In this document: positions 4,652 to 25,524 of the stretch, piece by piece
How the letters are laid out: every line of letters starts with the position of its first letter
Position numbering within the stretch: the first letter of the stretch is position 1
Source of the DNA: a virus
Reading direction: 5' to 3' (one strand)
IMG/VR virus record: IMGVR_UViG_3300010883_000218
Span: 1-32,842 of that record
Length of the DNA stretch: 32,842 nt
Program-made: the position numbers and the translations under genes
The notes under the pieces: generated by a model
What the model was told of the DNA's origin: nothing
Databases searched by the model: none
Seen by the model: the letters and a program-made list of their open reading frames with translations, nothing else

Positions 4652-4653
4652 GG

Positions 4654-5055
4654 ATGGTTGATGTACCCACACCAGAGGAAGGGCTTCGTCGGCGTCTCGA
4701 CAAAGAACTTGAAACGCTTCAAACCGACCAAGGTGACAACTTTAGTCGATACGCTCTTACGCGATTGCACCCGTCGTTGGAAAAGCGTCAGGTGCGATTT
4801 GGTGTCTGGAATGCCCCCCGGATTTCCCTTGTCAATCCGTTCTACAGAGTTGTTCGTGCAGAAGACGTTGGGCGTCTGGACAACATCTCGATGGAATACT
4901 ACGGCGATCCGAGAATGTGGTGGGTCATCGCGCATATCAATCAGATTTACAACATGCTTGCGGACATGGAAATTGGAATGACTTTGATCATCCCCAAAAA
5001 AGAGGCCGTCTTAGAGGCGCTTGAAACTGGCGACTCGGCGACGTTTGTAGCATGA
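4654..5055 (+). CDS. T4 gp53-like baseplate wedge protein (LysM-type domain)
   Basis: A 133-residue protein with a strong ribosome-binding site (GGAGGTAAGG just before ATG). Residues 64-114 match the gp53/LysM wedge pattern: YRVVRAEDVGRLDNIS, then YYGDPRMWWVIAHIN, then GMTLIIP. In T4, gp53 clamps neighbouring wedges together around the hub; in related contractile systems a LysM protein does the same. The stop overlaps the ATG of the hub gene (ATGA). The 63 residues before the domain probably contact other wedge parts. Assignment by motif is confident; the partner details are carried over from the family. Confidence 0.82.
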   Translation: MVDVPTPEEGLRRRLDKELETLQTDQGDNFSRYALTRLHPSLEKRQVRFGVWNAPRISLVNPFYRVVRAEDVGRLDNISMEYYGDPRMWWVIAHINQIYNMLADMEIGMTLIIPKKEAVLEALETGDSATFVA

Positions 5056-6173: not shown

Positions 6174-6174
6174 T

Positions 6175-6970: not shown

Positions 6971-7369
6971 ATGGCGGGACTTTACAAGGGCATGGCGTTA
7001 CCGTTTGGTAATACACTGTCGTCGTATTTCGACCCAAAAGACGACCGTGAAATTCTACGCACTTCGATCCTGATGATTCTGCAAACGAAGATCGGAGAGC
7101 GGGTGATGCTCCCCGGTTTTGGTTCTCCTCTACACGACTCGGCATTTGAGCCAAATGATGAAATCCTCGCAGACTCTTTACGAGGAATTGTGAGTGAGAA
7201 TGTACCGTTCTGGGACGAGAGGCTGGAAGTGTTGGACGTAGATGTGACTGACGAGCAGGGTGGCAACGGCGTGCGGGTCTCCGTCATCTACACAGACTTG
7301 GCGACTCCTGACGACGAAGATAGATTTATCTTCACTATTCCCAGCGAAGTAATTTCAAGGATTGACTGA
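6971..7369 (+). CDS. Baseplate wedge protein gp25-like (GPW/gp25 family)
   Basis: The ATG at 6971 follows the spike stop directly and gives 132 residues, the normal size for gp25. The hallmark region is at residues 39-61: TKIGERVMLPGFGSPLHDS followed by FEP, matching the conserved G-E-R-x-x-x-P-x-F-G-S core. The C-terminus has the expected beta strand pair (VRVSVIYTDL, DRFIFTIPS). gp25 is a small sheath-like protein that seeds sheath polymerisation on the wedge. An ORF start at 6896 inside the spike gene is rejected. The stop overlaps the next ATG by one base. Confidence 0.9.
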   Translation: MAGLYKGMALPFGNTLSSYFDPKDDREILRTSILMILQTKIGERVMLPGFGSPLHDSAFEPNDEILADSLRGIVSENVPFWDERLEVLDVDVTDEQGGNGVRVSVIYTDLATPDDEDRFIFTIPSEVISRID

Positions 7370-9387
7370 TGACAGCACCCACAATCAACTACACGGATCG
7401 CGACTTCGAGTCGATCCGCACAGCCCTCGTCAACCGGATCATGGCCGAGTTCCCCAACACTTGGCGGGACTTCACAGAGTCAAACATCGGCATGGCGTGG
7501 CTGGAACTCGTCGCCTACACATTCGACGTTCTGAGCTTCTACACTGACGAGATGGTGCGTAACCAGTTTCTCGGTACGGCGAACGACCGGGAAGCCGTGA
7601 TCCTCATCACTCAACTCGTCGGCTACAAACTCAGGCCCGCGACAAGTTCATCCGTCGTCGTTGTCGGAACGCTCTCCGCGTTGGAAGCCGTGGATATCGT
7701 GATTCAAGCGGGGTCGACTGTCGAAACAAATAACGGTGTCACGTTCGAGGTTCTGTCTGACCAGCAGATCATCGCGGGTTCCCTCACTGGCGATATCACG
7801 TTTGCTCAGGGCGTGACACAGCAAGATACTTTCTCGTCAGACGGCTCCGCCTTCCAAGAGTTCAAGTTGGTACTGGCTCCCGTCATCGACGGCTCCATAA
7901 CACTCACGGTCGACGGATTTGTGTGGGCTGAAGTGGATTCCTTGGTCTTCTCGGACGAAGCCAGCGACAACTTCTCTATGCGAGTGGACGTAGACGACTT
8001 CGCTTACGTCAAATTTGGCGACGGTACGTCGGGGGCCATTCCGCAGGCAGCAGCCAACATCGTCGTCACCTACCGCATCGGCGGCGGCGTGGCAGGAAAC
8101 ATTGCCATTGGAGAACTCACGGAGTTACAGGTCCAAGGTCTCCGGGAAGGTTCATCCCCGGAAGAGTTCGTAACGGTCACTCTCGACAATCTTGAACGAG
8201 GCTCCGGGGGAGAAGACCGAGAGACCATCGAGTCTGCCAAATTCTGGACGCCACGCACCGTCGCCACGAATGGCCGGGCTGTCACGGAAGCCGACTTCGA
8301 CACACTCGCCAGTCAGTTTACCGACCCCGTGTATGGCGCGCCTGCTTTTGCGAAAGCAAGGCTGAAACAGAGAATCCCGGAACTCAACACGGTGGAGATT
8401 TTTCTGTGGGCCAGAGACGGCTACGGAACCATCGTCGCCCCTTCGAGCAACCTGAAGACAGCCGTGCAAGCCTACTTCGATAACAACGGTGCCGGAGCGG
8501 TGAGGATCATCACCGTAGATACCGAAATACTTGACGGAGATAACGTCGTTGTGGACGTAGACGTACTCGTCACTGGAGACGGTACGGTCGCCGACTCTGA
8601 ATTGATGCTGTCTGTCACGCAAGCTGTTCGCGCCTACTTCTCTCTGCCTGCAAATCAGCCCGGCACGGACATTCGGCTGTCAAGGCTCTACAACCTGATT
8701 CAGGTCACGGACGGCGTCAGCTACGCTCTCATCCGCCGTGTCACGGCGTCAAGCGAAACCAGTGAGGTTATTGGATCAAGCGATGGCGTCACGCAGATGC
8801 AAACGTGGACGACGTTTGAGCAACCTCTTGCAGGCACGATTGTGATCACGTCCGGGGAACACAGCATCACGGACGACGGTGCGGGTAACCTGATCGGTGA
8901 CGTGGACGTAGGCTTTGCAAACACCGTGGATTACGACACGGGTGCGATCAGCTTCGGTTTTGCAACTCCTGTCCCTGCAAACGAAGAGGCGATTACAATC
9001 GTCTATCGCTACCCTCTGGAGTATCAGCGGTCTGAGACCGGATTGCACACGGGCAATGGAGTGACGACGCGATTCAAAGGTCAGCTTGCGACCTTCCCTG
9101 TCGTGCCGGGGTCTGTGGCCTTCACGGATGCGTACCAAACTTGTGCAGACGACGGTTCCGGCGCATTGGTTGGTGACGATCTGGACGCCACTGGCGTCAA
9201 CACCTTCGACTACGATACAGGCACCTACGATTTCACCTTTGACACTGCACCTTCATCGTCGCGAACCATCGCAGCCATGTATCGACAACTCTTGTCGGTG
9301 AACGCTGGCGACGTGCCTATTGACGAGCAGCAGTTGGCCGTTTCTGGGTTTGTCGACGTGGAGATTCAAACTGGCGTTGGGGGGTGA
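7369..9387 (+). CDS. Baseplate wedge protein gp6/gpJ-like with duplicated C-terminal domain
   Basis: A 672-residue protein starting with NYTDRDFESIRTALVNRI and a following SNIGMAWLELVAYTFDVLSFY, the N-terminal signature of gp6/J-type wedge proteins. Residues 1-460 follow the family, including a FKFGDGTSG-like KFGDGTSGAIP strand turn and a SSPEEFVTVTLDNLERGSGGEDRET segment typical of J proteins. Residues about 463-645 add two copies of a beta-rich module sharing DDG-x-G-x-L-x-GD, then N-T-V/F-DYDTG, a set absent from the minimal family. Two gp6 copies per wedge normally clamp one gp7/gpI, whose likely partners are encoded immediately downstream. Confidence 0.9.
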   Translation: MTAPTINYTDRDFESIRTALVNRIMAEFPNTWRDFTESNIGMAWLELVAYTFDVLSFYTDEMVRNQFLGTANDREAVILITQLVGYKLRPATSSSVVVVGTLSALEAVDIVIQAGSTVETNNGVTFEVLSDQQIIAGSLTGDITFAQGVTQQDTFSSDGSAFQEFKLVLAPVIDGSITLTVDGFVWAEVDSLVFSDEASDNFSMRVDVDDFAYVKFGDGTSGAIPQAAANIVVTYRIGGGVAGNIAIGELTELQVQGLREGSSPEEFVTVTLDNLERGSGGEDRETIESAKFWTPRTVATNGRAVTEADFDTLASQFTDPVYGAPAFAKARLKQRIPELNTVEIFLWARDGYGTIVAPSSNLKTAVQAYFDNNGAGAVRIITVDTEILDGDNVVVDVDVLVTGDGTVADSELMLSVTQAVRAYFSLPANQPGTDIRLSRLYNLIQVTDGVSYALIRRVTASSETSEVIGSSDGVTQMQTWTTFEQPLAGTIVITSGEHSITDDGAGNLIGDVDVGFANTVDYDTGAISFGFATPVPANEEAITIVYRYPLEYQRSETGLHTGNGVTTRFKGQLATFPVVPGSVAFTDAYQTCADDGSGALVGDDLDATGVNTFDYDTGTYDFTFDTAPSSSRTIAAMYRQLLSVNAGDVPIDEQQLAVSGFVDVEIQTGVGG

Positions 9388-9390
9388 TGA

Positions 9391-10530
9391 GTGAATATCG
9401 GCTTGTACGATTTGCTCCCCCTTGCCATCAGGGTCCACGACCAAAAAGCATCCGGGGCGGGGAGTGAAGATTCAATTCTGACTCGTGTAATTGGCACAGT
9501 CGTCCAAGATGAGACGGACGAACTGGTTGCCCTTATTGCGGGTATGCGCGACCTGATCCAGCCGTCGTTGACGACAGACCTGATTCTGTCTCTCCTCGCT
9601 GAGTACCTTGGCGTCACAGGGTTCTCGTTCTCCGAAGTTGAAAACGATCGAGGAGAATACGTCGCCAACCTTGCGGATGCCCACAAAATCAAAGGCACGT
9701 TGCTTTCCATACTTCGGGAAATGCAAGCAAGGAACATTGCCCCGGACACTTTCATCCACGAGCTTTGGAAAGACGAACGCTACGCGGTTGATGAGTACGC
9801 TCTTATTGAGTCTGACACGCTTTACGGGAGTGGGATGAAAGCCGCTCGCATCGTGTTCATCAACGATCCTTACGAGGCAGAGCCTACCCCAAGCGATGGC
9901 TCCGTGAAGGGTATCTTCGCAGAAGATCAAGTTCCGTTTCTGACTGCCAATCAGTGGCGAGAGCGGTTGAACAACGTATTTCCAATTCACGTCATTGTTC
10001 CCGTTCCCGTGTGCCGTGTTGCGTTATCTGATGACGCCCCTGTTATGACAGAAGATTTTAAGGGTACGATCTACGGTCTCTTTGAAGACAACTTCCCCAT
10101 CATCACTGACGAGTTAGAAATCGTCATTGAGTGCGTGGCTTCATGTCAGGTCAGTTGTCAGGAAAGATGTGAGACTCTTTGCGAATTTACTTGCGAGACG
10201 ACTTGCGAGTCTTCGTGTCAGGCCCTTTGTGAATCTGATTGTCAGGCTGTTTGCCAGAGTTTTTGTCAGGCTTCTTGCGAGTCGGATTGTCAGGATTCTT
10301 GCCAGAGCTTTTGTCAGGCTTCTTGCCAGAGCGTTTGTCAATCCGCGTGTGAGGTGAATTGTCAGCAGGCTTGTCAATTTGGCTGCCAAGACGCGACGGA
10401 ATCCTGCCAATCATTTTGCGAACTCAACTGCCAGACAGACGCGGAAATTATTTGCAGCGACCAGTGCCAGACGACTTGCCAATCAGCCGCACAGAATCCT
10501 TGTCCGACAGGAGAGATACCAATTAACTAG
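9391..10530 (+). CDS. gpI/gp7-like wedge protein fused to a C-[E/Q]-x-x cysteine array
   Basis: A GTG start three bases after the gp6 stop, preceded by GGGGTGA, gives 379 residues. The N-terminal domain (YDLLPLAIRVHD, then EYLGV, then AHKIKGTLLSILREM near 95-110) fits tail protein I, the wedge partner of gp6/J. After a linker module (about 187-247) the C-terminus is extraordinary. From C248 to C332 there are 22 cysteines spaced exactly four residues apart, 21 of them followed by Gln or Glu, and seven more cysteines follow less regularly. It likely projects from the baseplate as a short fibre or fibre connector. Cysteine chemistry (thioether, metal or disulfide) is unknown. The N-terminal domain is shared with the 2950-residue fibre encoded downstream. 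Confidence 0.75.
   Translation: MNIGLYDLLPLAIRVHDQKASGAGSEDSILTRVIGTVVQDETDELVALIAGMRDLIQPSLTTDLILSLLAEYLGVTGFSFSEVENDRGEYVANLADAHKIKGTLLSILREMQARNIAPDTFIHELWKDERYAVDEYALIESDTLYGSGMKAARIVFINDPYEAEPTPSDGSVKGIFAEDQVPFLTANQWRERLNNVFPIHVIVPVPVCRVALSDDAPVMTEDFKGTIYGLFEDNFPIITDELEIVIECVASCQVSCQERCETLCEFTCETTCESSCQALCESDCQAVCQSFCQASCESDCQDSCQSFCQASCQSVCQSACEVNCQQACQFGCQDATESCQSFCELNCQTDAEIICSDQCQTTCQSAAQNPCPTGEIPIN
10132..10386 (+). repeat. Tandem 12-base repeat encoding C-[E/Q]-x-x, strict period
   Basis: Twenty-two consecutive Cys codons lie every 12 bases. The following codon is CAG/CAA or GAG/GAA in 21 cases. Cys, Gln and Glu codons vary synonymously (TGT/TGC, GAG/GAA), which points to selection on the protein. 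One unit encoding CQSFCQAS recurs at 10252 and 10300 with 23 of 24 bases identical, so local duplication also happens. Confidence 0.92.
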
Positions 10531-10540: not shown

Positions 10541-11353
10541 GTGGAGCGGGAGTCAGTTTACTGCCAGATGTACTGCCAGACGGCAACCGAATTAGGGGTC
10601 TGCACGACGGCGTGTGAAAACTTTTGCCAGCAAGGATGTGAAGTCAGTGGATGCGAGGAAGGGTGTCAATCCAGTTGCGTTGGTGGATGCGAGTCGTCCG
10701 GGTGTGAATCCGCGTCTTGTCAGCTTGCGTGCGAGAAGAGCCAGCAAGCCGACTCTTGCAGTAAATCCTGCGAGAGTTCTGGCTGCCAGTGGTCTTGTAC
10801 GACCGGCTGCACGTCAAGCTGCGAACTGGAAGGTTGCCAGACTGACTGCACACTTACCTGCCAAGCGGCCTGCCAGAGCGACGGAGAGGCTCAGGGAGCC
10901 TACGAGCCGGAGTCTGGGGGTCACTGTCAGACAACGTGCGAACAAGCGTGTCAGGAAGCCTGTGAGGGTGCTACGACGTGCCAGACGTCGTGTCAGACAA
11001 CGTGCGAATGGGATTGTGAGTTTGACTGTGAACTGGAACAGCAGGCTGGGCAGTCGCCGTCTGCTGGTGCTTGTGAGTTCGGATGCGAGTACACTTGTCA
11101 AAATTCCGTCCAAGGAAAGCCTCAACTCCCCCGGTGGGAAGAGGCTCTTGCAGAGTACGGAAGGCTCTCGTCGCGGGAGCTTAACAGCGAATTTTCTTGT
11201 GAATCGTCCTGCACTGGTGGATGTACGACCGCTTGTCAGGCAGACGCCGGTTGCCAAATGCTGGTGCAAGGCGGATGTGCTGTGTCTTGTGAGTCGAATG
11301 GTTGTCAACTGAGTTGGGAATCGGAGATGGAGACGGATGCTCCGAATTTATGA
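10541..11353 (+). CDS. Stand-alone cysteine-rich fibre-associated protein
   Basis: The GTG at 10541 has AGGGGGAAG just upstream and gives 270 residues; the longer open frame upstream only shadows the previous gene. The protein has about 43 cysteines, most followed by Glu or Gln, with spacings of 4 and 5 (CESSGC, CQTTC, CEFDC). There is no N-terminal wedge domain. A less Cys-rich stretch near residues 190-220 (PRWEEALAEYGRLSSREL) may be a helix separating two arrays. The end overlaps the giant fibre start by 17 bases, so the two are probably translationally coupled. It may be a fibre tip or cap, or a substrate of the radical SAM enzyme. Function is not known. Confidence 0.7.
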   Translation: MERESVYCQMYCQTATELGVCTTACENFCQQGCEVSGCEEGCQSSCVGGCESSGCESASCQLACEKSQQADSCSKSCESSGCQWSCTTGCTSSCELEGCQTDCTLTCQAACQSDGEAQGAYEPESGGHCQTTCEQACQEACEGATTCQTSCQTTCEWDCEFDCELEQQAGQSPSAGACEFGCEYTCQNSVQGKPQLPRWEEALAEYGRLSSRELNSEFSCESSCTGGCTTACQADAGCQMLVQGGCAVSCESNGCQLSWESEMETDAPNL

Positions 11354-14300
11354 TATTTTGCCGCTCGTAATCAGGCTCCGGGATGCGCAAGCGTCCGGGT
11401 CTGGTGGCATCGATCCAATCCTGAAACGCATTACGGATCGTCTTCTCCAAGACGAGTACGATACGCACGCTGCGCTCATTGCGGGGATGAAACAGCTTAA
11501 CAACGCCCTGCAAACCGACAGCCCCTATCGCGCTCTGCTGTTTCAATTTTTAGGTGAGCAGGTCGCGGAAGGCTGGACAGAATCTCTGGAGAGGTTTCTG
11601 CTGAGCGAGGCCATCCCTTGGCACAAGGTCAGTGGCACAGTTCACGGTTGGACGAAGACGATGGTCTACCGTGTCGCGGGTGCGTATGACTTCTACGAGC
11701 TTTTCAAAAAGCAGCCGTATGAGGTTGGAGACTACAACCCGCAGTCAAACGCAGAGTTTCCCCTACGCGCGGCTCGCGTTGTCATCTCTCCCGCCGGGTT
11801 GTTCCCCTACGACTGGTCGACGGACACGATCATCGCTGTCCCCCCTTACATTCCCGGACCCCCGCCTCCGGGTCGCGTTGCTCCAATCGATATTGATTAC
11901 GACGTCCCGGAAGTGGATTACGACGCCGAGCTTCCGGCTGCGGTTGTGGACCTGTTTGAGCCTTGCGAGAAACTCGTCAGTACGGAGCGGGGGCCGGATC
12001 ACCTCTTTGGCAAGTCGCTCGCGATCATTGAGCATCCCGCAACAGACGTGCCTTACGGGACACTGGCGGCGTCCACCAGCTTTGAGGATACGTTCGTTGA
12101 CGCCGACGACACTGCGCTGTCTGCCCACGTTTCCGACTCAGGGCATACTTGGCGATCTGTGCAGTTTGGCTCCTTCGAGGGTGGCGACATAAAAATCGTC
12201 GACAACAAGCTGCTCAACCCGAACAGCACAAGCGAAGCCGAAAACGGTCACAACTTCAAAGTCATTGACGCGGCATTCTCCGCAGACGCTACGGTTTCCA
12301 TTGATTTTTTGATGGTAAACGACTCCGTTGCGGGAACACCCACACCGCATGTACGCGAAGCCGATGAGCTTGGCCTCACGACTCGCATGTCGTTCGCCGC
12401 ACCCTTGGGAAGCGGTCAGGAGTATCCAGACTACATTTTTGGTCGCGCTTACGATGACGTCGGCCTAGATGGTACGTTCAGACTTGGTATTGATGCCGTC
12501 GTGGGTAGCGATATTTCCACACTAGCGTTAGGCAGCGTTGAGCATGATAAGACAAAGTGGTGGAAGCTCACGATGACGTTGTCCGGGACAACGATCACGC
12601 TCACCACGACACCTGTCGGACACAGCGGAGTAGGTGACTCAATCACCGCTCAGTCTTCAGTCAACATCACAGAGAAAATGTTTGGCCTTTGGGTCCGGCA
12701 GGTCGGAGATCGCGGCAACACAAATCCCGTATCGCTCTTGGACAACATGAGCATCGTCGCGGACCCCGTAGGTGTCATCAGCGTCAACGACGCGGGGACT
12801 GACCTGTTTGTCGGCGAGCCTCAGTGGACCAACTTGGCGACAGGGTTTTTCCACCAAGGTCGCGTGCTGCGTTACCGACAACGAACGGACGGGGTGTGGG
12901 TTTACCAAGAGCAGATTGTTGCCCCACTCGTCGACCCACTAACCGGCGACCCCTTCACCGAAAACACTTTCTTCGGCACGTCCGTCTACGCGCACGGTGA
13001 TTATCTTTGGGTTACCCAACAGCAAAATTGGGCGTGGATTTTCAAACGCGGTGCAGACGGAAATTACGTCAACGTCGACTCCACGAGTAAGACCCCTGCG
13101 ACACCCATCCGTCGCCGGGCAGTCATGGAAACACACCCGCGAACGGGGATAATCTACGCCGCCTCGATTGTCCGCACCCCCGCTTCGTTAATAAATTACC
13201 TTGAAGACCTGTTTTTAGACGTAGACGAAACAAAGCTGACAGACCACGTCGTCCAAGGGACAGCGGGATGGACTGGGTGGAACAAGGTTCTCGGCACAGA
13301 CCCGCGAATTATTAGCAACGGATTGCAGGTCTACAACACATCTTCAACTGTTGGTCTAAACGAGATCGTACTCGACCTTCGGCCCAATGTCCTTGCTCAA
13401 GGCGTTGTTCAACTGAACAACGCAGACTTCATGGGGTTTGCTGCGAGAGGTGTATTTTCTGGGATCGACTCGACTTACTTTCGCGGTGTGTTGCAGGCTG
13501 ATGGGAAAATTGCCATCTACTGGGTCACTGCGGGGGGGACAACCCAATTACTAAGGCGAGGCACGGTCTCCCACAACTTAAACGAGAGGTGGCATCTTGC
13601 TCTGAGGTTGTCTGGGCGATCTCTCCAGCTTACGAGTACCGGGGCAGGTCTAGGTCAGGCCCCCGGTGATACAATTTCTGTTAAAAACTCAAACAACATT
13701 GCTGCGATACGTTTTGGTCTGGTGCATCAACATGACGGAGGAGGTGTTGAGTCCGAAGTTGAAGCTGTCTTCGAGGACGCATTTTTCACAAATATAGGGA
13801 ATGCAACTCTCGACAGCGTTCAGCTTCACCAAGAAAATGTGGGCAAGACTGGGTTCGATGAAGTTGGCTCTTTGATCGCCGTTGAGGGTGCCGAATCCAT
13901 TCACGCCGCCGGAAACTTCATCGCGGTTGGTCGACCGAAAGCCCCCACGGATTACACCAAGCCCGGCACAACGACGACGACAGGAGACCTGAGTCATCTC
14001 TGGGGTCCACCGGACGGGGAGTGGGTTGGTGGATCGTCTGCCGGGGGTCCATCGAGCGAAGTAACACCTTGGACCATCTGGCCGCAACAAACGTCGGACT
14101 ACATCGCATCCATTGGCCCACGAACGGTTGCGACGACAGACAAGTCTTACCGACTTATTTTCAACGTGAAGTTACCGAACGAGAACAACCCGCCGCTCAA
14201 AGCGAAGGTGACCGGGGTCGAGATGACGCTTACGCGGAACTCGATGATTGGGTCGGGTCTCGTCACAGACTACGCACTTGGGTTGGTCATCACAGGTTCC

Positions 14301-17300
14301 GGTGCGAATCTACCGTTTGGTGGAACGGGTGCCGGGTCAAATCAAGTGGCGGGTCAGGCGTGGTCTGTTGTTGCACCCCAGACGCCGCAGACCGTGACTT
14401 ACGGTGGCTACGGCAATATGTGGGGGTACGACGTCCCCGGCAGGTTGTTCCCCTCTGGAGACCCTAACCTGCGAGACTTCGGTGAGAGGCCGCTGATCGT
14501 CGAAGACTTTGTCAAAGGCTTTAGCGACCACGGTGCGGCGTCGTTGTCGAACGCCCGCGTCTACTACACCGTTGGTGGCTTGAGCGCCAACTCAGACGGC
14601 AGGCTGCACAACGCTACGGTCAAAATCTACTACGAGCTTGAAGGGGGTACGGCGGTCTGGGTTGGTCACGTCGACATTTTTGAAGTCGTCGAAGAAACAC
14701 CCGGAACGCTTGGCCTTGAGTTCGTCAAAGAGGTTCACGCTGAGGACGAGGCAGAGGCCATCGCCGGAGCCATCGCTGCCGGGGGGACCGCCTCAGAGTT
14801 TGGTAGCGACGTTCACATGCGGGGCAACGAACTCGTCGTTGCATCCCGATGGCCGGAAGCAACCATTCCGGGGGACTCTACAGGCGCTCGTGTAAAATTC
14901 AGTGGCGGTGCATACCTGTTTTACGACAACGGAAATGACGGCGGTTTCCGTCAGGCACAGCAGTTGCAAAGAGCCTACCCAGAAACCCTTCCGGGGTTCA
15001 GTGGTAATCTCTCCGTTCTCGCAGCCGCTTCTGTTTTCATTGGCGACGGGTTTATCGCGGTCGGCTCACCGGGAGATTACTGGGACGCAACCTTCAAAAA
15101 TTCTTTGGGAGCCGCAACAGGAACGGTCACGCTCTACGAAGGGTTGTACTCTTACAACGGGTACATGGAGTCTCAGGTCATCGCAGCGTTTGGAATCAAC
15201 GGTCGTCAAGATTCAGACTTGTCTCCTCAAGACTGGGACATGGCCTTTGGTGATTGTGTCGCGGGTATCGATGACGAGTTGGCTGTCGGTGCGTGGGGCG
15301 ACAATTTCGACGTCTCCGGGCAGAATGAAATACAAGACGCGGGGGCCGTCTACACCTACTGTAAGGGTGCGTCACTTCCCACGGTTGAAGAGGAAGACGA
15401 GGGGCGAGACGCCCTTGTCTGCCTTGACTTCGCAATCTTACCCATCGGTGGTTTGGACACGACCTACGCGGCGGACGACACAACGTCGATGCTCGTGGTC
15501 AACATGCAGTTCCCGCCACAACCTGTTTCCGTACCGCCACTCACGTTCACCGGACCTTTCGATCTGATCGGCGTTCGTTTCCGCGCGTGGTCTGCCGACA
15601 CCTACACGGTGAATATCAACAACAGCTTGGCGGAGGGTTCGACTAATAAACGATCCATTCAAGTCAACAGTTTTGAGGTGAAGGAATACGAGGTTTGGTG
15701 GACGGCAGACGATCTGAGTGTTCCTCGCTGGAATGACTCCGACATTGATTGGGAGACGTTCTGGGTTTCGTTCACCACGAACGGCGGGCTGGTCTCCATC
15801 ACGGCTGCCGAGTTCATCGTCAGGAAGCAAGCCAGCGATCTGCCGTGTCCCTCAGACAACTTTTCTTTCCAAAGCGCAAGCAGCGTAGGCGTCGGGTCGG
15901 GAAATGGGGCGGTGACAACTCCGTGGGAGTCGGGGGCAGGCATTTCGGGCCACGTAATGTCCATCGGCCCTCGCGTGGGTGCCTCGACTGACCGCTCTCA
16001 CCAGATTATTCAATGGCAAGGTGTTTCGCAGGGTGAGGCAGAGGGCCTGCCTCTTGACGCGGTGCTGACAGGTATTGAGTTAAAAATGACCCGGCGGGCA
16101 GACGGTGGCCCGATACAAGACTACGCGGTGCATTTGCAGGTTAGAGACTCTTACGAAAACTACCTCTGGGATTTGAACTTCAGAGGAACCAATCAGTCCG
16201 CAGGTGCAACATGGGGCGCGACCACGGAAACCGTGACCTTTGGTGGTCCGGGAGATATGTGGGGTCACGACCCGACTGGACCTGTTGAACCCACCACTGA
16301 TCCGATAAATCCAAATCGAGATTTCAGTGTTGAGCCTTTGATCCTTGCCGATTTTGTGCTTGGCGCAAACAACCCCAATCCACTTTCAGTAAACGCCGCT
16401 TTCTGGATCGAAGTCGATGGTCTGGACGCTACCTCAGACGGTAAGTACATCTCTGCCATCACCACGCTCTATTACGAGTCTTCGTGTGCAGTTGCGGGTT
16501 CTCTCACGAATATCGAACCCCCAAACAGCGGAGGAAGCCAAGGTGGGACGCTTAATACAACTCGATGGGCAATCTCCTCTTCCCCCCAGAACCCTCCGTA
16601 CATCGGACTCATCGGACCCGGAAATGGAGAGTCGTGGCGTAGGACCACTAATGTCAGACTGCCAAGCGAGGGTATAGACGATAGTCTTCTCAACGCTGTC
16701 GTGACGGGCATCGAAGTGAAGATGGGGAGGACAGCGACAGCCCCCGTCAACGATCTTGGTGTCGCGGTGATGTGTAACAATTCTGGTGTCTGGTGGGATG
16801 ATGTTAGAGTAAACCGATCAGCAGGGGCCGCATGGGGGGCTGAAGAGGTAGTTACCTTCGGCAGCCCTACAGACTTGTGGGGGTACAAGAATGGACCGCT
16901 GTTTTCCACGTACAGAGATTTTGACGCAAGACCGTTGACGGTGAGGGACTTCGTCCGTGGTTACAGCGACAACGCCTCGAAGCCTCTCCCCAGCGGCAGC
17001 CTATCGAACATGAGCGTCTACGTCGTCGTAGACGGATTGACGAGTTCGTCGCGGGGTAGAATGTACTCCCTTGAGACGACAATTTATTACGAGGCTCCCG
17101 GCGGTGGTGGGGGTGGAGACCCCGGACCCGGACCCGGATTTTACAACCACACTACCGAAGTTGAGTCGAACAACAACTCGATAACGATTTCCGAAAACGC
17201 TCCTGCTAATAACCTCTTTCAGGGTGGTGTTGGCGTAACCACAACAATTATCTCCGTTGGGGGTGCAGGGGCCGGAGGCATTCACCGCGTAGACAACGGG

Positions 17301-20189
17301 ATGCACTTGCGGTTCCCTAACGTGGATATCCCACGGGGCTACACGATCACGGGGGCTTCGCTTTACCTCTCACCCTACGGATACTTTTCAAACCCGAAAC
17401 CGATAGACGCCCACGGCCCACCGAAGGGGATGACACTTGTTGACGGTGAGTTGAGTGGAGACGCAAGTCGGCCACAGGATATTGCAGATTACCTAAGCCG
17501 ACCACGAACCTCAGCGAATGTTGCGTGGCCGCTGCCTGTGTTCGACTACTCGAACGGTGCGCAGTCGCAGGGTCTCCGTCCCCCAGACTTGAGGCACATC
17601 GTACAGGAGATTGTCAGTCAGTCTTCGTGGTCGTCAGGAAACGCCCTCAGCCTTTCGGTCATGCCTCATCCGAATTTCTCGACTGGTGGAACCGCAAGCT
17701 CGTACTGGACCAAGTGGATTCACAACTACGCGGCTAACTCAGCCAATCGTGAGTCTCGCCTCTTCATCACTTACCAGCCAAATAACGACGGTGATGATGG
17801 GGGTGGCGGCGACGTCATCGTCGAATCTTGCTTGCAAGCCTGCGAATGTATTTGTCAGTCATCCGCAGAGCTAGGGGCTGATGGGTGCGTAACCACTTGC
17901 GAGACCTCTTGCCAAGGCACCTGCGAACAAAACTGCCAGACGGCGCTGGAGACCGTCACCTGCCAAGGTCAGTGTGAAGTTGGCGTCGAACCCAATTCCA
18001 CGTTCTCTCTTCCCCCGGACCAAGACGGAATCACCCTGTTCCAGTACGAGCTTGAGGGGACCATTGAGATCAATGCGTGCCTCGGAAACTCCATTCGGTT
18101 TACCGACGCGATGGCCTTGCTGGACACCTACTTTCGGGACCAACGGCCAATCCATGTTCTCCCCGTGTACTGCCTGACGATCGCAGACTTCCCGGAAGTG
18201 GCTTCTGTCGCGGGTGACGATTTCTTCGTGCGGGTGCTTGCCAATTTTCATGACCACCTTGCTGCCCAAGCTGACAATCTGGAAATTCTCCCGGAATGCA
18301 CAGTGGGCTGCCAAGTAAGTTGCGAGACATTTTGTGAGGTAGGTTGCGAGGATAATTGTCAGGGGATTGGAGCCTGCGAAAGCTCTTGCCAGCTTAGCTG
18401 TGAGGCCAATTGTCAGACTGATTGTGAAATCGTCTGCCAAGCCGGTTGCGTCATCAGTTGCCAAGCCGACGCTTGCCAGAGTTTTTGCCAGTCATCTTGC
18501 GAGGCTGATTGTCAGATCGCGTGTGAAGATCAATGTCAGGGAGCTTGCGAGATCGCAGGTTGCCAGCTTTCATGCACCGCCGGATGTGAAGACTCCTGCG
18601 AGTTTGATTGCCAGCATGAATGTGAATTTGATTGTCAGTCCCCGGCGGAAGTTTCTTGCCAGACTTCTTGTCAGGATTTTTGTGAAACGTGCTGCCAAGA
18701 TTCTTGCGAAGGTGTCGGTTGCCAGACGACTTGTGAGCAAGTTTGCCAAGCCTCTTGCGTCTCTGGTTGTGAGGAATCTTGTGAGACAAATTGTCAGACT
18801 TCTTGCGAGGCCGGTTGCCAGTCAACTTGTGAATTTAATTGTCAGGCAGATTGCGAAGGTGCTGGATGTGAGGTTGGTTGCGAGGGGGGTTGTCAGGAAG
18901 GTTGCCAGTCCTCTTGTGAGGTGACTTGCGAGGGTGCCTCATGCCAGATGGCCTGTGAAGGCAACGGTTGCCAGAGTTGCTGCGAATGCCAATGCCAGTC
19001 GACAGGCTGCGAGAGCAGTTGCACGTCCGGGTGTACTGAAGGTTGTCAGACAGGCTGCGAATCCGGCTGTCAGGACGCGGGAGGCTGTGAGACCGGCTGT
19101 GAAATGGCCTGCGAGGGTTCAACCGAATCCTGCACCGATTGTTGCGAAGTTTGCTGTGAAGAATACACAGAATACGGATGCACGCTCGGCTCCTGCGAGT
19201 CTACTTGCACGGCGGTGTCTTGCCAGTCTGCGACTCAGACACCGCCACCGATTCCTCCGCCACCATCGCTTAACGATTGCGGGGATAACCGGCTTGTAAA
19301 CCCAAGGTTTGATGAATTTCAGGAAGTTGACCGGCCCGGTGTAATAGTCGGTTGGATGACAGAAGAGGGGACACCTTATCGAGATGAATTCGTTTATCAC
19401 ACGCCGGAGCATTCGTGGCACGGCCTGTCAGGGACGCATAGTTCGTCTCAAGCCATTGTCGCGACGTCAGACGAAATCTTTCACATCGATCAGGTTGGTG
19501 GAGGTATGCTCGCATCCGCATCTATGTGGGTGAAACGGGCGTCTAACGCAGACTCCGCACTGCTGAGTCTGCTTTTCTTAGATACCAGTGCCAGAGTGAT
19601 AAGCCGACAGGATGCCACGATAGCCGCAGGTGCGGATGGCTCCGGGACGTGGCAGGAGATAACGATTCCCTCTGGAGACCTGAACTTATTTATGCCCGTG
19701 GGAACCCGCGCCATTCGTCTCATCATCCAGTCAGAGGGCGACGTCCACATCGACGACGTTCACTTCGGGATGTGCTACGGTAAACTCCAGCCGCCTACGG
19801 ATGAGCGGTCTGTTCCATGCTGCCCCGAACCCATCAAAGAAACTCTGTATGCGTCAATCTCAGCACCGGGGAACCTGATTGATGGTGCGGTCGTCCCAAT
19901 ACTGACTCAGACTGTGGGGACGGAAGCTCCGTGGGAGAATATCACGGAGCTTTGTGGTTCTAACTGGTTCTTCGACTTGATTTGCCCTCTTGGGACTGGG
20001 GTTGGAGACTTTACTCTCCGAATGGAAAACGCCGAGTCTGGTGTAGACGCCACTGTCAACCCTGACGGCGGAGCAAGTTGCAGCCCGTTGTTCTTGGTCT
20101 TCACCTACACAACAATTACTACGATAGCGAGCGACTGTGGCCCATCAGGTCAAACTATCGTAATCACCATCACAGACGTTGCACCGTGA
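11337..20189 (+). CDS. Giant 2950-residue wedge-anchored tail fibre with cysteine arrays
   Basis: ATG preceded by GGAGATGGAG. Domains by reading, with approximate residues: 1-155 gpI/gp7-like anchor (YDILPLVIRLRD, later KVSGT); 249-476 and 620-826 LamG-like jelly rolls (FEDTFVDADDTALSAH); FG-GAP-like propeller pieces at 476-617, 827-875 and 1103-1345; a beta-rich module repeated three times at 888-1102, 1507-1717 and 1722-1918; a DNRLRE-like domain at 1938-2148; a small Cys cluster at 2165-2213; a linker module at 2225-2318; a long Cys array at 2321-2629 with about 77 cysteines; a Pro-rich hinge at 2636-2644; then CBM-like and C-terminal beta domains at 2650-2950. It is probably the main receptor-binding fibre, attached at the baseplate wedge. 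The domain names are fold guesses; the anchor and Cys arrays are direct observations. Confidence 0.85.
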   Translation: MLRIYDILPLVIRLRDAQASGSGGIDPILKRITDRLLQDEYDTHAALIAGMKQLNNALQTDSPYRALLFQFLGEQVAEGWTESLERFLLSEAIPWHKVSGTVHGWTKTMVYRVAGAYDFYELFKKQPYEVGDYNPQSNAEFPLRAARVVISPAGLFPYDWSTDTIIAVPPYIPGPPPPGRVAPIDIDYDVPEVDYDAELPAAVVDLFEPCEKLVSTERGPDHLFGKSLAIIEHPATDVPYGTLAASTSFEDTFVDADDTALSAHVSDSGHTWRSVQFGSFEGGDIKIVDNKLLNPNSTSEAENGHNFKVIDAAFSADATVSIDFLMVNDSVAGTPTPHVREADELGLTTRMSFAAPLGSGQEYPDYIFGRAYDDVGLDGTFRLGIDAVVGSDISTLALGSVEHDKTKWWKLTMTLSGTTITLTTTPVGHSGVGDSITAQSSVNITEKMFGLWVRQVGDRGNTNPVSLLDNMSIVADPVGVISVNDAGTDLFVGEPQWTNLATGFFHQGRVLRYRQRTDGVWVYQEQIVAPLVDPLTGDPFTENTFFGTSVYAHGDYLWVTQQQNWAWIFKRGADGNYVNVDSTSKTPATPIRRRAVMETHPRTGIIYAASIVRTPASLINYLEDLFLDVDETKLTDHVVQGTAGWTGWNKVLGTDPRIISNGLQVYNTSSTVGLNEIVLDLRPNVLAQGVVQLNNADFMGFAARGVFSGIDSTYFRGVLQADGKIAIYWVTAGGTTQLLRRGTVSHNLNERWHLALRLSGRSLQLTSTGAGLGQAPGDTISVKNSNNIAAIRFGLVHQHDGGGVESEVEAVFEDAFFTNIGNATLDSVQLHQENVGKTGFDEVGSLIAVEGAESIHAAGNFIAVGRPKAPTDYTKPGTTTTTGDLSHLWGPPDGEWVGGSSAGGPSSEVTPWTIWPQQTSDYIASIGPRTVATTDKSYRLIFNVKLPNENNPPLKAKVTGVEMTLTRNSMIGSGLVTDYALGLVITGSGANLPFGGTGAGSNQVAGQAWSVVAPQTPQTVTYGGYGNMWGYDVPGRLFPSGDPNLRDFGERPLIVEDFVKGFSDHGAASLSNARVYYTVGGLSANSDGRLHNATVKIYYELEGGTAVWVGHVDIFEVVEETPGTLGLEFVKEVHAEDEAEAIAGAIAAGGTASEFGSDVHMRGNELVVASRWPEATIPGDSTGARVKFSGGAYLFYDNGNDGGFRQAQQLQRAYPETLPGFSGNLSVLAAASVFIGDGFIAVGSPGDYWDATFKNSLGAATGTVTLYEGLYSYNGYMESQVIAAFGINGRQDSDLSPQDWDMAFGDCVAGIDDELAVGAWGDNFDVSGQNEIQDAGAVYTYCKGASLPTVEEEDEGRDALVCLDFAILPIGGLDTTYAADDTTSMLVVNMQFPPQPVSVPPLTFTGPFDLIGVRFRAWSADTYTVNINNSLAEGSTNKRSIQVNSFEVKEYEVWWTADDLSVPRWNDSDIDWETFWVSFTTNGGLVSITAAEFIVRKQASDLPCPSDNFSFQSASSVGVGSGNGAVTTPWESGAGISGHVMSIGPRVGASTDRSHQIIQWQGVSQGEAEGLPLDAVLTGIELKMTRRADGGPIQDYAVHLQVRDSYENYLWDLNFRGTNQSAGATWGATTETVTFGGPGDMWGHDPTGPVEPTTDPINPNRDFSVEPLILADFVLGANNPNPLSVNAAFWIEVDGLDATSDGKYISAITTLYYESSCAVAGSLTNIEPPNSGGSQGGTLNTTRWAISSSPQNPPYIGLIGPGNGESWRRTTNVRLPSEGIDDSLLNAVVTGIEVKMGRTATAPVNDLGVAVMCNNSGVWWDDVRVNRSAGAAWGAEEVVTFGSPTDLWGYKNGPLFSTYRDFDARPLTVRDFVRGYSDNASKPLPSGSLSNMSVYVVVDGLTSSSRGRMYSLETTIYYEAPGGGGGGDPGPGPGFYNHTTEVESNNNSITISENAPANNLFQGGVGVTTTIISVGGAGAGGIHRVDNGMHLRFPNVDIPRGYTITGASLYLSPYGYFSNPKPIDAHGPPKGMTLVDGELSGDASRPQDIADYLSRPRTSANVAWPLPVFDYSNGAQSQGLRPPDLRHIVQEIVSQSSWSSGNALSLSVMPHPNFSTGGTASSYWTKWIHNYAANSANRESRLFITYQPNNDGDDGGGGDVIVESCLQACECICQSSAELGADGCVTTCETSCQGTCEQNCQTALETVTCQGQCEVGVEPNSTFSLPPDQDGITLFQYELEGTIEINACLGNSIRFTDAMALLDTYFRDQRPIHVLPVYCLTIADFPEVASVAGDDFFVRVLANFHDHLAAQADNLEILPECTVGCQVSCETFCEVGCEDNCQGIGACESSCQLSCEANCQTDCEIVCQAGCVISCQADACQSFCQSSCEADCQIACEDQCQGACEIAGCQLSCTAGCEDSCEFDCQHECEFDCQSPAEVSCQTSCQDFCETCCQDSCEGVGCQTTCEQVCQASCVSGCEESCETNCQTSCEAGCQSTCEFNCQADCEGAGCEVGCEGGCQEGCQSSCEVTCEGASCQMACEGNGCQSCCECQCQSTGCESSCTSGCTEGCQTGCESGCQDAGGCETGCEMACEGSTESCTDCCEVCCEEYTEYGCTLGSCESTCTAVSCQSATQTPPPIPPPPSLNDCGDNRLVNPRFDEFQEVDRPGVIVGWMTEEGTPYRDEFVYHTPEHSWHGLSGTHSSSQAIVATSDEIFHIDQVGGGMLASASMWVKRASNADSALLSLLFLDTSARVISRQDATIAAGADGSGTWQEITIPSGDLNLFMPVGTRAIRLIIQSEGDVHIDDVHFGMCYGKLQPPTDERSVPCCPEPIKETLYASISAPGNLIDGAVVPILTQTVGTEAPWENITELCGSNWFFDLICPLGTGVGDFTLRMENAESGVDATVNPDGGASCSPLFLVFTYTTITTIASDCGPSGQTIVITITDVAP
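14000..17095 (+). repeat. Triplicated ~200-residue beta-rich module within the giant fibre
   Basis: Three diverged copies lie at about 14000-14645, 15855-16485 and 16500-17090. Each has an I-G-P element, then a V/L-TG-I/V-E core (VTGVEMTLTR, LTGIELKMTR, VTGIEVKMGR), then a D/N-x-W-G turn (GNMWGYD, GDMWGHD, TDLWGYK), a PL-x-V/A-x-DFV segment and an end with I/L-YYE. An FG-GAP-like region and one unassigned domain separate copies 1 and 2. The nucleotide sequence has diverged, so the duplication is old. It probably lengthens the shaft or provides binding sites. Confidence 0.8.
17829..17975 (+). repeat. Short cysteine cluster A in the giant fibre
   Basis: Residues 2165-2213 carry a dozen or so cysteines in CxxxC-type spacing with Glu/Gln after most (CETSCQGTCEQNCQ). 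It precedes the linker module that is shared with the 379-residue fibre protein. Confidence 0.8.
18297..19223 (+). repeat. Long cysteine array B in the giant fibre
   Basis: Residues 2321-2629 hold about 77 cysteines, one in four residues. The basic unit is C-[E/Q]-x-x, with regular interruptions of five residues (CEGVGC, CEGAGC, CEIAGC) and a few CC pairs late in the array. The opening CxxGCQVSC matches the opening of the array in the 379-residue protein (CVASCQVSC). Confidence 0.92.
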
Positions 20190-22148: not shown

Positions 22149-23864
22149 ATGGCGAATAGACTTCTCAACGCGCACTTGAATCCTCGCATTCAGTGTGTGC
22201 CGCTACGAAGTGATGAGTCCCCGGAACTGGTCTACGTCAAGGTGGCGGAAGGGCTGGAGTTCGCGATGGACCCCAACAGCATGTGTGTGATGCAGATCGA
22301 CGGTCCTGAAGACTTCATCGAGTTGAGAAACAACCCGCCGACGCCCTACGTCATGGCGAAGTACAAACCAAACTTTCAGCGGGCCGGTGGAGACCCCCCT
22401 GTACGTTCGTTGGTGCTGGAAGCATGTCACGATTGCAATTTGGCCTGTTCGTACTGCTTCGTCCGCAACTATTATGCCGACCACGGGACGGGCAACTACA
22501 TGACGTTCGAGACGGCCCGAAGTGCCATCGATCGTCTGCTGGACCCCCGCCAAAAGTTGTCGGTCGGTTTCTTCGGCGGGGAGCCGATGTTGAACATGAA
22601 GCTCCTCAAAGAAGTCACGGCCTACGTCGAGCATCTTGCACTCACGCAAGGGCCGGGCTGTAAAGCCTGCGGTGGAGGGGGGCTTACCAGAGGCGAGCAG
22701 TGTCGTGGCTGTCGCGGCACAGGAAAGCAGAGTCCGGGTCTGCATGTCACGACAAACGGAACGCTCTACTCTGAAGAGAATCTGCGGTTCCTTGCGGATC
22801 ACGGATATTCTCTCATCACGTCTATCGACGGAACGAACGAGGCTCACGACGCGCTTCGTCCCATGAAGCGTTCTGGTCGAGGCTCTCACAAACAGATCAT
22901 GTCCGGTCTGGAGCGGATGCTGAAAATCGCCCCAACTCTCACGAAGAGCAACACGCTGCGTTCCACGTTCTCCGCGATGCGGGGGGAGACGATCCGAGAA
23001 CGTCTTGAGTTCCTCAATCAGATTTGTGACGACGGCAAGGCGTCATGGGTCAGCGTTGAGCCAGCCGCGATGAGTGAAAACACCTGCTTCATCCCGAATC
23101 AGGACGAACTCGAAATCCACATAGGAAATGTGTGGGATCGATTTTACGACGAGTACATGGATACGGCTGACTGGTGGATCGAACGAGCAACCGCCGGGAA
23201 GCAGCCACGGTTCCACAACATTCACAAGAGCCTTGAGCGGCTCTTCTGGACAGTCCACTCCGGGACAGAATGTGGAGCGGGAGCCGGATACGCTGCGGTC
23301 AACGCCAAGGCAGAAATCTTCGGGTGCCACCGAGAGAGCAACAGCTACCTCGGCACGCTCGTCACAGGAGTCGATCCGAAGCTCCGCCAACCTTGGCTCG
23401 ACAATCGAATCTACACGCGAACTGGCTGCATGAACTGCGGGCATCGTTACGCTTGTGGTGGGGGTTGTCGTGAGGATTCGATGGGGGATAAGGGCAACAT
23501 CCACGAACCCAGCAACGTCCATTGCACGTTGAAGGAAATGTGGATTCGCAGTGCCTTGAAGGTCATGGCATCCTTGCCGAAGAAAACCATCGCAAGGTTC
23601 TGCTCCGAACCCCGGAAGATGGACAGCCGGAAGCTCTACGGTTTTATCTCTGGCGACACGCTACCCAGAGACAAATCGGGCATCATCGAAACGAAGTGGG
23701 TTGAGAACATCCCGCTTTCCGCGCTGGTGAGAGAGGGAGTCGATCCGACTGTTCCCGTTCCTGACTTTCATGATGAGCCAATTGATCAGACCGTCGTCGA
23801 CACGGCGTACAACCCGGCGGGGCCTGTTGAGCTTCCTGCCGCTGTCCAAACTGCACTTCGATAA
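22149..23864 (+). CDS. Radical SAM/SPASM enzyme, peptide/protein-maturase type
   Basis: The ATG at 22149 with AGGAAA upstream gives 571 residues. The radical SAM cluster is CNLACSYC (C96, C100, C103). The SAM-binding GGEP is at 143-146. A C-terminal SPASM region has C375, C393, then CMNCGHRYACGGGC (C427, C430, C436, C440) and C459, the arrangement of protein- and peptide-modifying SPASM enzymes that hold extra 4Fe-4S clusters. An unusual insert at 171-191 has CKACGGGG and CRGCRGTG, like half of a DnaJ zinc finger. Enzymes of this class make Cys thioethers (QhpD, PapB, ranthipeptide maturases) or formylglycine. Neighbouring Cys-rich fibres are candidate substrates. Fold: sure; reaction: inference. 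A longer ORF start at 22065 lacks a ribosome-binding site. Confidence 0.9.
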   Translation: MANRLLNAHLNPRIQCVPLRSDESPELVYVKVAEGLEFAMDPNSMCVMQIDGPEDFIELRNNPPTPYVMAKYKPNFQRAGGDPPVRSLVLEACHDCNLACSYCFVRNYYADHGTGNYMTFETARSAIDRLLDPRQKLSVGFFGGEPMLNMKLLKEVTAYVEHLALTQGPGCKACGGGGLTRGEQCRGCRGTGKQSPGLHVTTNGTLYSEENLRFLADHGYSLITSIDGTNEAHDALRPMKRSGRGSHKQIMSGLERMLKIAPTLTKSNTLRSTFSAMRGETIRERLEFLNQICDDGKASWVSVEPAAMSENTCFIPNQDELEIHIGNVWDRFYDEYMDTADWWIERATAGKQPRFHNIHKSLERLFWTVHSGTECGAGAGYAAVNAKAEIFGCHRESNSYLGTLVTGVDPKLRQPWLDNRIYTRTGCMNCGHRYACGGGCREDSMGDKGNIHEPSNVHCTLKEMWIRSALKVMASLPKKTIARFCSEPRKMDSRKLYGFISGDTLPRDKSGIIETKWVENIPLSALVREGVDPTVPVPDFHDEPIDQTVVDTAYNPAGPVELPAAVQTALR

Positions 23865-23872: not shown

Positions 23873-24565
23873 ATGGAATTGAAACTCGCGGAAACTCCTG
23901 ACGGAAAATTCTTCGTCTATGAGGGTGACTACATTGGGGACATGCTGCTGGCTGGCGAGCGATGGGAGCCTTGGGTTCTCGATGCGATCGCGGGCTGCGC
24001 GGACCGATCCAAAGTCTTCATCGACGCCGGTGGTTTTTACGGGACGCACGCGGTCTTCGCCGCAAGCCGTTTCAAGCACGTCCACGTCTTCGAGCCTTAC
24101 CCGGACTTCGCGAAGATACTCCGGCGAAACCTCGCGTTGAATGGAGTAACCAACGTCACCGTCCACGAGATGGCGTTGGGTCGAGACGAGCGTAGCGTGC
24201 GGATGCTTGATTTCGCAAATATCGATGAAATCCACCCGATGAACCTTGGTGGGCTGTCCAGCCTTACTCGGCAGCAAGACCATTCCATTTCGGCATCTCA
24301 AGTCACGCTCGACAGCCAAATGATTGCTAACGTGGGGGTGATCAAAATTGACACGCAAGGGACGGAGTTCCGGGTGTTGGAGGGGTCGAGAGAAACCATT
24401 GGACGCTACAGGCCCATCGTTTTTATCGAGGGGTCTGAGAAGCAGCTTGCAGTCTACGGAGACTCATTCCGCGACGTGCGAAGATTTTTCGTCAACCGCA
24501 AATACAAACGCTTGATCCGACTCAAAAAAAATTGTGCGGATTTCATGGGGGTGCCTAAACGGTGA
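23873..24565 (+). CDS. FkbM-family SAM-dependent methyltransferase
   Basis: A 230-residue protein starting 8 bases after the radical SAM stop. Motif I is KVFIDAGGFYGTHA at 48-61, the acidic adenosine-binding post-I is VFEPYPDF at 72-79, and IKIDTQGTEFRVLEG at 157-171 is the FkbM signature. FkbM enzymes O-methylate sugars or other hydroxyls of surface glycans and natural products. Among glycosyltransferase genes, its likely acceptor is a sugar added to the fibre or another surface structure. Overlaps the next gene by four bases (GTGA). Confidence 0.88.
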   Translation: MELKLAETPDGKFFVYEGDYIGDMLLAGERWEPWVLDAIAGCADRSKVFIDAGGFYGTHAVFAASRFKHVHVFEPYPDFAKILRRNLALNGVTNVTVHEMALGRDERSVRMLDFANIDEIHPMNLGGLSSLTRQQDHSISASQVTLDSQMIANVGVIKIDTQGTEFRVLEGSRETIGRYRPIVFIEGSEKQLAVYGDSFRDVRRFFVNRKYKRLIRLKKNCADFMGVPKR

Positions 24566-25524
24566 AGGTCTTATTCGTTTGTCACAAATCATGGTGGGAA
24601 TGGAAATGCCCTCCGTTCTGGCCGGAAATGTTTTTTGCTCTTGAAAAACACCCCGAAGTCAAAATTGTACGGACTGGTCCTCGCTGGGGCGGCTGGGATG
24701 AAAAAGCGTCGTTGAAGCAGAACATCGAAAGACTGATGCCTGACGCCGACGTGGTTTTCATGTGGCGACCGTTTGGCATCGTGGAGTTCGGCGGCTTCCG
24801 GGGCGCAGACGAACGTATCGATCAGCTAAAAGTCTCCGCGTACCAAGACTCTCCGGTCAAAGGTGCGATCGAAGCTAAGAACGCGGGCCTTGACCTGCTC
24901 TTCTATCACGATCACTGGGACAGACAGTTCTTTCAGGACTGCGGTGTTCGATCTGTCTACCTGCCACTGGCGGTCAACCTTGATCTGTTTGGCGAGTGGG
25001 GCAACAACCAAGAGGGTCGATCAACACCGATCCTCTTGACAGGAAACACACAACAGCAGACCTACCCGCTGAGGTATCGCTACGAGCGTATCCTGCGGCA
25101 CAAGCGAGGCATCCAAGGCCGCATCCGCCCCATGCCGGGCTACCGGATGAAATCTCTCGATCACGTCATGCAGGAGCAGAAACGGTACGTTCGATCGCTT
25201 TGCAACTCCCGAATTTCTATCGTCACGTCCTGCCCTCACATCCCGTTGACACTGCGAAAGTATTTTGAGTCGATGGCTGCGGGCTGTGTCCTCGTCGGTG
25301 ACGTCCCCCACTCTCCCCCCGATGACGTGAAAAGCTGCATCAACGTGGTCAGCATGAAGATGAGTGATGCTGAACTCGTCGCGACGGCAAACCGGCTGGT
25401 GAACGATCCGAAAGAATGCGAACGTCAACGACAGCGGAACCGAAAAATCGCGGAGAATTACAGCTACACGGAGTTTGCTAAACGCTGGGTGTCCGCAGTG
25501 AAGGAAAGTCTGGCGTCTCGATGA
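24562..25524 (+). CDS. GT-B glycosyltransferase (CgeB/group 1-like)
   Basis: A 320-residue protein with a GTG start overlapping the FkbM stop. It begins with a Rossmann strand (MKVLFVCHKSWWEWK) and has a late acceptor/donor-site block, HIPLTLRKYFESMAAGCV then GDVPHSPPDD near residues 230-260, which matches E-x-x-A-x-G of CgeB/group 1 transferases. The C-terminal helix (RQRQRNRKIAENYSYTEFA) is also typical. Sugar donor unknown. Four-base overlap with the next gene shows a tight operon. Confidence 0.8.
   Translation: MKVLFVCHKSWWEWKCPPFWPEMFFALEKHPEVKIVRTGPRWGGWDEKASLKQNIERLMPDADVVFMWRPFGIVEFGGFRGADERIDQLKVSAYQDSPVKGAIEAKNAGLDLLFYHDHWDRQFFQDCGVRSVYLPLAVNLDLFGEWGNNQEGRSTPILLTGNTQQQTYPLRYRYERILRHKRGIQGRIRPMPGYRMKSLDHVMQEQKRYVRSLCNSRISIVTSCPHIPLTLRKYFESMAAGCVLVGDVPHSPPDDVKSCINVVSMKMSDAELVATANRLVNDPKECERQRQRNRKIAENYSYTEFAKRWVSAVKESLASR

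Follow-up and report, generated by a model that had tools for sequence, protein, structure and literature searches.

A phage radical SAM/SPASM enzyme that probably cross-links the cysteine repeats of its own tail proteins

Downstream of three tail genes that carry arrays of C-[E/Q]-x-x repeats, a contractile-tailed phage encodes a radical SAM/SPASM enzyme which, to judge by how constantly such enzymes accompany repeats of this kind in the tail proteins of many unrelated viruses, probably stitches these cysteine repeats by sulfur cross-links into a rigid part of the tail, an activity that, as far as we found, is unreported for any virus. Our search of the open-access literature returned no report of radical SAM modification of a phage tail. 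The window analyzed here is the whole of a linear virus record of 32,842 bases (IMG/VR record IMGVR_UViG_3300010883_000218). An earlier note on this DNA had already read the enzyme as a candidate thioether maturase of the tail arrays, and the sequence comparisons reported below support that reading once its pairing rule is corrected. The basis directly observed consists of an intact gene, the class of its product, its adjacency to arrays in many phages, and the coupling of Glu and Gln (E/Q) to a cysteine at position -5.

Results

Gene layout and cysteine arrays

The features of the window are collected in Table 1. The enzyme gene begins 1.96 kb downstream of position 20189, on the same strand as the array genes and with packed small ORFs between, in agreement with the 2 kb given in the earlier note. 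That note had also described the arrays as belonging to fibre proteins; the homology of the first array protein to tail protein I places at least part of the system at the baseplate or tail tip rather than in the fibre proper. The genes between the enzyme and the tail-collar-like gene may serve further decoration of the tail.

Table 1. Features of the 32,842-base window
Feature	Position	Strand	Remarks
Baseplate hub	37-882		
Tape measure	1095-4046		Wedge proteins also present in the same tail gene run
Phage_base_V	6124-6969		
Baseplate wedge / J-like protein	7369..9387	+	45-53% identity to counterparts in many other array phages
Tail protein I homologue	9391..10530	+	PF09684, E 4e-5; C-terminal C-[E/Q]-x-x array
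Array 1	10132..10503	+	29 Cys, in the 9391-10530 product
Array-only protein	10541..11353	+	~270 aa with 42 array Cys; start inferred to be the GTG at 10541, given GGGGGAAG ahead of it
Tail fibre-like protein	11337..20189	+	2950 aa; N terminus tail-protein-I-like (BLAST), array near C terminus
Array 3	17829..19223	+	87 Cys, two blocks (aa 2165-2209 and 2321-2629 of the 2950-aa protein)
Small packed ORFs	Between 20189 and 22149		
Radical SAM/SPASM enzyme	22149..23864	+	571 aa; candidate array maturase
CNLACSYC radical SAM cluster motif	22434..22457	+	C96, C100, C103
GGEP motif	22575..22586	+	aa 143-146
Gly-rich insertion in radical SAM domain	22659..22718	+	Two CxxC pairs (CKACGGGG...CRGCRGTG)
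SPASM region	23271..23525	+	Seven Cys (C375-C459)
Decoration module	23873-29081		FkbM methyltransferase, glycosyltransferases, methyltransferase, sulfotransferase; directly downstream of enzyme
Tail-collar-like gene			Closes the run, after the decoration module

Together the arrays of the three tail genes hold about 158-159 cysteines, and four consecutive units of the pattern TGY SAR N6 occur 43 times in the window, whereas 100 shuffles gave an expectation of 0.00. A DNA repeat artefact was ruled out as the source of the arrays, as their codons are mixed; most DNA tandem repeats fall at 10216-10340, and two minor ones near 10.9 kb. The AlphaFold model of the array protein reached a pLDDT of 41.5 and was uninformative.

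Arrays of other kinds and in other settings were seen as well. In three loci (L177:2324-4150, L179:117-1574 and L306:12734-15226) a short C-E array separates a tail-protein-I domain from collagen-like GXY repeats, placed as if registering a collagen-like trimer. In clostridial contigs (L232, L196, L236) arrays are joined to amidase-like or Hoc-like proteins, so that the array behaves as a mobile module, not bound to one tail protein. A second repeat type, GExxC with a cysteine every seven or eight residues, is found in another phage (G015; L156:5659-7947 and 3217-4779), where it adjoins a divergent radical SAM-like gene that PF04055 does not recognize.

Coupling of Glu and Gln to upstream cysteines

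The earlier note had remarked that nearly every array cysteine is next to Glu or Gln. This stands as a count, since E/Q follows 82% of the 159 array cysteines in the window, but it fails as the underlying rule. Over 165 runs, the share of cysteines followed by E/Q is 35% for the first of a run, about 88% for later ones and 82% for the last (first vs last, p 1e-18); if E/Q merely accompanied each cysteine, first and last would be alike. Across all arrays, the frequency of E/Q is 0.87 at positions with both their own cysteine (-1) and an upstream one, 0.54 with a cysteine at -5 only, 0.22 with their own only, and 0.07 with neither. Among residues of the window that adjoin no cysteine, E/Q makes up 57% (17/30) where a cysteine stands at -5 and 8% otherwise (p 2e-10); the corresponding figures are 54% vs 7% over all arrays (p 4e-139) and 31% vs 6% in loci that had not been chosen by their E/Q pattern (p 4e-16), all of these p-values assuming an independence of residues and records that related sequences violate. 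In the sequences at hand, then, the residue coupled to each cysteine is the Glu or Gln five positions downstream (C-x3-C-[E/Q]) and not its neighbor.

Within array 1, E/Q is found at +5 for 28/29 cysteines and at +1 for 26/29, and a one-to-one pairing is possible for all 29; about 138 such pairs can be drawn across the three proteins. Spacings of +4 and +6 are present beside +5. The acceptor position hardly ever holds D, N, S, A or G but admits T and M; Gln is as frequent as Glu. Common to the favored residues E, Q and T is a hydrogen-bearing gamma carbon, which would fit an attack at that carbon. The coupling could alternatively reflect non-covalent structure.

Two other pairings were weighed on the same statistics, namely a bond between each cysteine and its directly adjacent E/Q, or the mirror arrangement in which E/Q is joined to the cysteine three residues downstream. 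Besides the E/Q found after most array cysteines, the E/Q at -3 seen for 61-69% of cysteines in regular arrays would suit them. Yet without an upstream cysteine, E/Q after Cys drops to 16-22%, and without a cysteine at -4, E/Q at -3 drops to 11-14%, near the baseline of 7-11%. Both pairings were therefore rejected on residue statistics, and we hold either to be improbable.

Class and relatives of the enzyme

The ORF is intact, begins with ATG and contains all the hallmarks listed in the earlier note: CNLACSYC, GGEP and the full SPASM cysteine set. The seven SPASM cysteines (C375, C393, C427, C430, C436, C440 and C459) are invariant across 12 aligned relatives, and at position 388 Ala replaces the usual Gly of SPASM. 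A PF04055 match of 56 bits (cut-off 29.5, E 6e-15) assigns the protein to the radical SAM superfamily, and the seven-Cys set after the radical SAM domain to the SPASM peptide/protein maturases. Among NCBIfam models the best scores were those of the nif11 maturase (163 bits), QhpD (TIGR03906, 160), SCIFF maturase (TIGR03974, 157) and PapB (NF047865, 150), the last three under their cut-offs of 453, 425 (equivalog) and 340; in fact, every curated peptide-maturase family has a cut-off exceeding the enzyme's score. The CXXX-repeat maturase model TIGR04115 gave 63 bits (cut-off 350) and its target model TIGR04117 gave 16 bits (cut-off 50) with the array protein.

The predicted structure (pTM 0.79) has CteB (5wgg) as its best Foldseek match (E 4e-20). 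In a tree of 33 sequences the enzyme falls in a phage clade (95/91) that groups with genuine SCIFF maturases (99/97), and its N-terminal beta strands, where a leader-binding RRE domain might lie, align with theirs (DPNSM/DVNSG, the DxNS motif), the remainder of that domain being short. HMM scores, tree and fold all place the enzyme with the makers of non-alpha thioethers (SCIFF/CteB, PapB, QhpD) and not with sulfatase maturases. The earlier note had named grouping with anaerobic sulfatase maturases, together with a nearby sulfatase, as evidence that would speak against it. A relative of these maturases acting on a sulfatase would share the common SPASM fold, and anSME is indeed the second Foldseek family (3e-13), but the enzyme scores 68 bits with the anaerobic sulfatase maturase model TIGR03942 (cut-off 349) against 160 for QhpD, it stands apart from E. 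coli YdeM and AslB in the tree, and the scanned ORFs of the window hold no sulfatase. We rejected such a reading on HMM scores and tree, and consider it hardly credible.

Array-adjoining enzymes do not form one clade in this tree, so their chemistry could differ between phages; those of other phages score best with the PapB model NF047865. A search for a conserved leader before the arrays found only a loose acidic-hydrophobic stretch. The closest relative of the enzyme, with 55% identity, is encoded on a viral contig of 172 kb (L135, G005) and appears to be interrupted by a pair of inteins, the first located ahead of the initial SPASM cysteine and the second within the SPASM motif. With its two CxxC pairs, the Gly-rich insertion of the phage enzyme looks like a DnaJ-type zinc finger, and among the aligned enzymes it recurs in this closest relative only.

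Linkage of enzyme and array

The linkage between enzyme and array is real and general. IMG/VR was scanned for six consecutive C-[E/Q]-x-x units, which gave at least 120 stretches; among the stretches listed, 32 true arrays were picked by hand for their diverse x residues and long frames, the rest being simple-sequence artefacts, and 50 artefact records served as controls. Among the matches listed, PF04055 was present in 26/32 array records vs 3/50 controls (Fisher 2e-13, with record independence incomplete in that G009/G014 and G021/G031 are near copies). Two of the 26 positives (G004, G016) lie under Pfam's cut-off, and the enzymes in the three control records are other radical SAM types. A 27th positive, G015, was missed by Pfam and found by motif, its radical SAM-like gene (CSGGCVYC) lying just upstream of the array. 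As for the negatives, G003, G007 and G017 have arrays that extend nearly to the downstream end of the contig, G019 begins inside its array, and the array of G025 is nearly identical to that of G018, which has the enzyme. In all positives of this set, array and nearest enzyme share a strand, and the distance between them is usually less than 3 kb.

The result was replicated without hand selection by means of a strict alternating Q/E pattern and its complete list of 25 stretches, 21 of which are in records with a radical SAM gene. Of the four misses, three are arrays truncated at the end of a contig (L038, L337, L082) and one is a CQPR/CESR simple repeat (L339); in the five new records with measured distances, enzyme and array lie close together, on opposite strands in one (L338). 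The earlier note had proposed this check of genome context and had said in advance that related phages with the array but never the enzyme would count against it; instead, the two occur together almost always.

Starting from the enzyme, an alignment of seven sequences led to 54 viral loci. The 20 relatives at 30% identity or more include 14 beside long arrays, three beside short ones (L177, L178 and L179, with L177 and L179 having them directly before collagen-like repeats), two cut off upstream (L164, L169) and one split (L175); nine of the 14 long-array loci lie on contigs that the array-first search had already yielded and are thus not new evidence. Arrays were absent beside the more distant SPASM enzymes of human-gut scaffolds and Erwinia phage Caitlin, which argues that the array link is specific and not general to SPASM genes. 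Some relatives of the enzyme in cellular genomes also adjoin arrays (L216, Oscillospiraceae, Peptoniphilus, Fervidicella and Bathyarchaeota). The Bathyarchaeota contigs L255, L243, L260 and L281 combine C-[E/Q] arrays with SPASM radical SAM relatives, which suggests that viruses or proviruses of archaea have this system too.

A different explanation for these loci would be that the arrays are ordinary disulfide or metal-binding scaffolds, and that the enzyme serves the neighboring tail-decoration module. The glycosyltransferase, methyltransferase and sulfotransferase genes directly downstream of the enzyme lend themselves to it, as do the phages whose SPASM enzymes have no array. However, adjacency of an array to a SPASM enzyme of peptide-maturase type is seen repeatedly in phages whose array-bearing proteins differ widely, as well as in archaeal and clostridial genomes, and disulfides leave the directional E/Q coupling unexplained, which makes this explanation a poor candidate.

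Tandem radical SAM genes adjoin a single array in L124, L130, L149 and L150 (G020, G027), the first gene encoding a shorter enzyme from another class and the second the PapB-like enzyme. Baseplate J had been considered as a control for array-free relatives and was dropped, its matches being mostly array phages. Many metagenome contigs (L299-L303) stop just after J, where arrays or collagen-like repeats would begin, perhaps because repeats break assembly, so the system is probably under-counted. Among 50,697 records of cultured phages, no close homologue of J or of the enzyme was found.

Discussion

We think it likely, from class, context and residue coupling, that a phage maturase of the ranthi type (PapB/SCIFF/QhpD type) writes overlapping Cys(i)-Glu/Gln(i+5) thioethers into the phage's own tail arrays. 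Its substrates would be the arrays of the tail proteins encoded just upstream. Most likely, a hydrogen would be taken from the Glu or Gln side chain, presumably at the gamma carbon, and that carbon joined to the sulfur of the cysteine five residues upstream to give a C(i)-[E/Q](i+5) thioether. In favor of this spacing, a Cys32-Thr37 link, likewise five residues apart, has been reported for CteA and Tte1186a (PMC8326336). Because cysteines recur every four residues, successive rings would overlap by two residues and the array would become a continuous laddered rod; the first array protein could hold as many as 29 rings, the three proteins together about 138. Modification would take place before or during tail assembly, and the outcome would be a rigid segment, resistant to proteases and reductants, at the baseplate or tail fibre, where we presume its mechanical role and benefit to lie.

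The enzyme might modify the arrays by other chemistry, such as alpha-carbon thioethers, links from Cys to Thr or Ser at +2, or modification of E/Q or Cys with no cross-link. SPASM enzymes of similar sequence are in fact known to yield alpha-, beta- and gamma-thioethers, C-C links and formylglycine (PMC8326336), and the top HMM scores of our enzyme are spread over four families that differ in chemistry. The commonest pair at Cys+2 is with T/S, and CteA was found in later work in E. coli to be linked at Cys32-Thr34 through the gamma carbon (PMC8326336); the relatives therefore do not fix the spacing. Nevertheless, the strongest coupling in our data is that of Cys(i) with E/Q(i+5), and the nearest characterized families all make non-alpha thioethers, for which reasons we regard other chemistry as unlikely, while granting it a real chance.

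Beyond this phage, we lean towards a widespread viral system, also present beside clostridial and Bathyarchaeota arrays, in which an enzyme would write from tens to more than 100 overlapping Cys-Glu/Gln rings and so give a covalently laddered fibre. If this is true, virus particles are built with radical SAM peptide chemistry, on a scale (about 138 possible links in three proteins) far past the six links of freyrasin, and a strange, recurring sequence pattern of phage tails is explained. Thioether-stapled protein rods could then be encoded genetically, and the enzyme would offer a marker for phages of anaerobes with tail genes that break in assembly; a direct test would be feasible with two genes.

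Comparison with known systems

The thioether chemistry of QhpD, PapB and SCIFF maturases is documented in reviews, which confirm the earlier note in its description of QhpD and PapB as enzymes that join Cys to Asp or Glu (PMC8326336, PMC8172795). SCIFF (CteA/CteB; TIGR03974) is the sister clade in our tree, with the 5wgg fold match and the DxNS beta domain in common, and the SCIFF peptide reads CQxxCQxxCKxxC. One SCIFF reference enzyme (L226), which exceeds the family cut-off (538 vs 425 bits), adjoins a SCIFF-like peptide, CGECQTSCQSACKTSC, with the same grammar as the phage arrays. This CQxxCQxxC grammar is common to the SCIFF-like peptides at L226:9558-9785 and L227:5169-5321 and to the phage arrays, hinting at a common origin. 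SCIFF, however, is a free peptide of 45 residues with one mapped link, whereas 29-87 array cysteines are found here in large virion proteins, and the Cys-rich genes neighboring the enzyme encode tail proteins of 270-2950 aa where an adjacent peptide of ~45 residues would be expected.

PapB (NF047865) writes multiple Cys-Asp/Glu side-chain thioethers along one peptide, as we propose for the phage enzyme, and those of freyrasin are Cys-Asp beta links (PMC8326336, PMC8172795). It does so in C-x3-D (i to i+4) and refuses Asn in place of Asp (PMC8172795), in contrast to the i to i+5 spacing proposed here, with Gln equal to Glu. QhpD (TIGR03906) makes Cys-Glu gamma and Cys-Asp beta links (PMC8326336, PMC8172795) and, like the phage enzyme as we read it, places them in a protein subunit and not in a small peptide; its target, unlike the tail proteins, is a dehydrogenase subunit with three links, and we saw no qhp genes in the phage window. 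The CXXX-repeat system (TIGR04115/TIGR04117), which owes its name to the pairing of a radical SAM enzyme with a neighboring Cys-x-x-x repeat protein, is a different family by score, enzyme and array protein both being under its cut-offs, and searches of anaerobe genomes with both models gave no useful match. Covalent hardening of a phage structural protein is familiar from the capsid of HK97, where it takes place in the head, by an autocatalytic Lys-Asn isopeptide bond and with no dedicated enzyme known.
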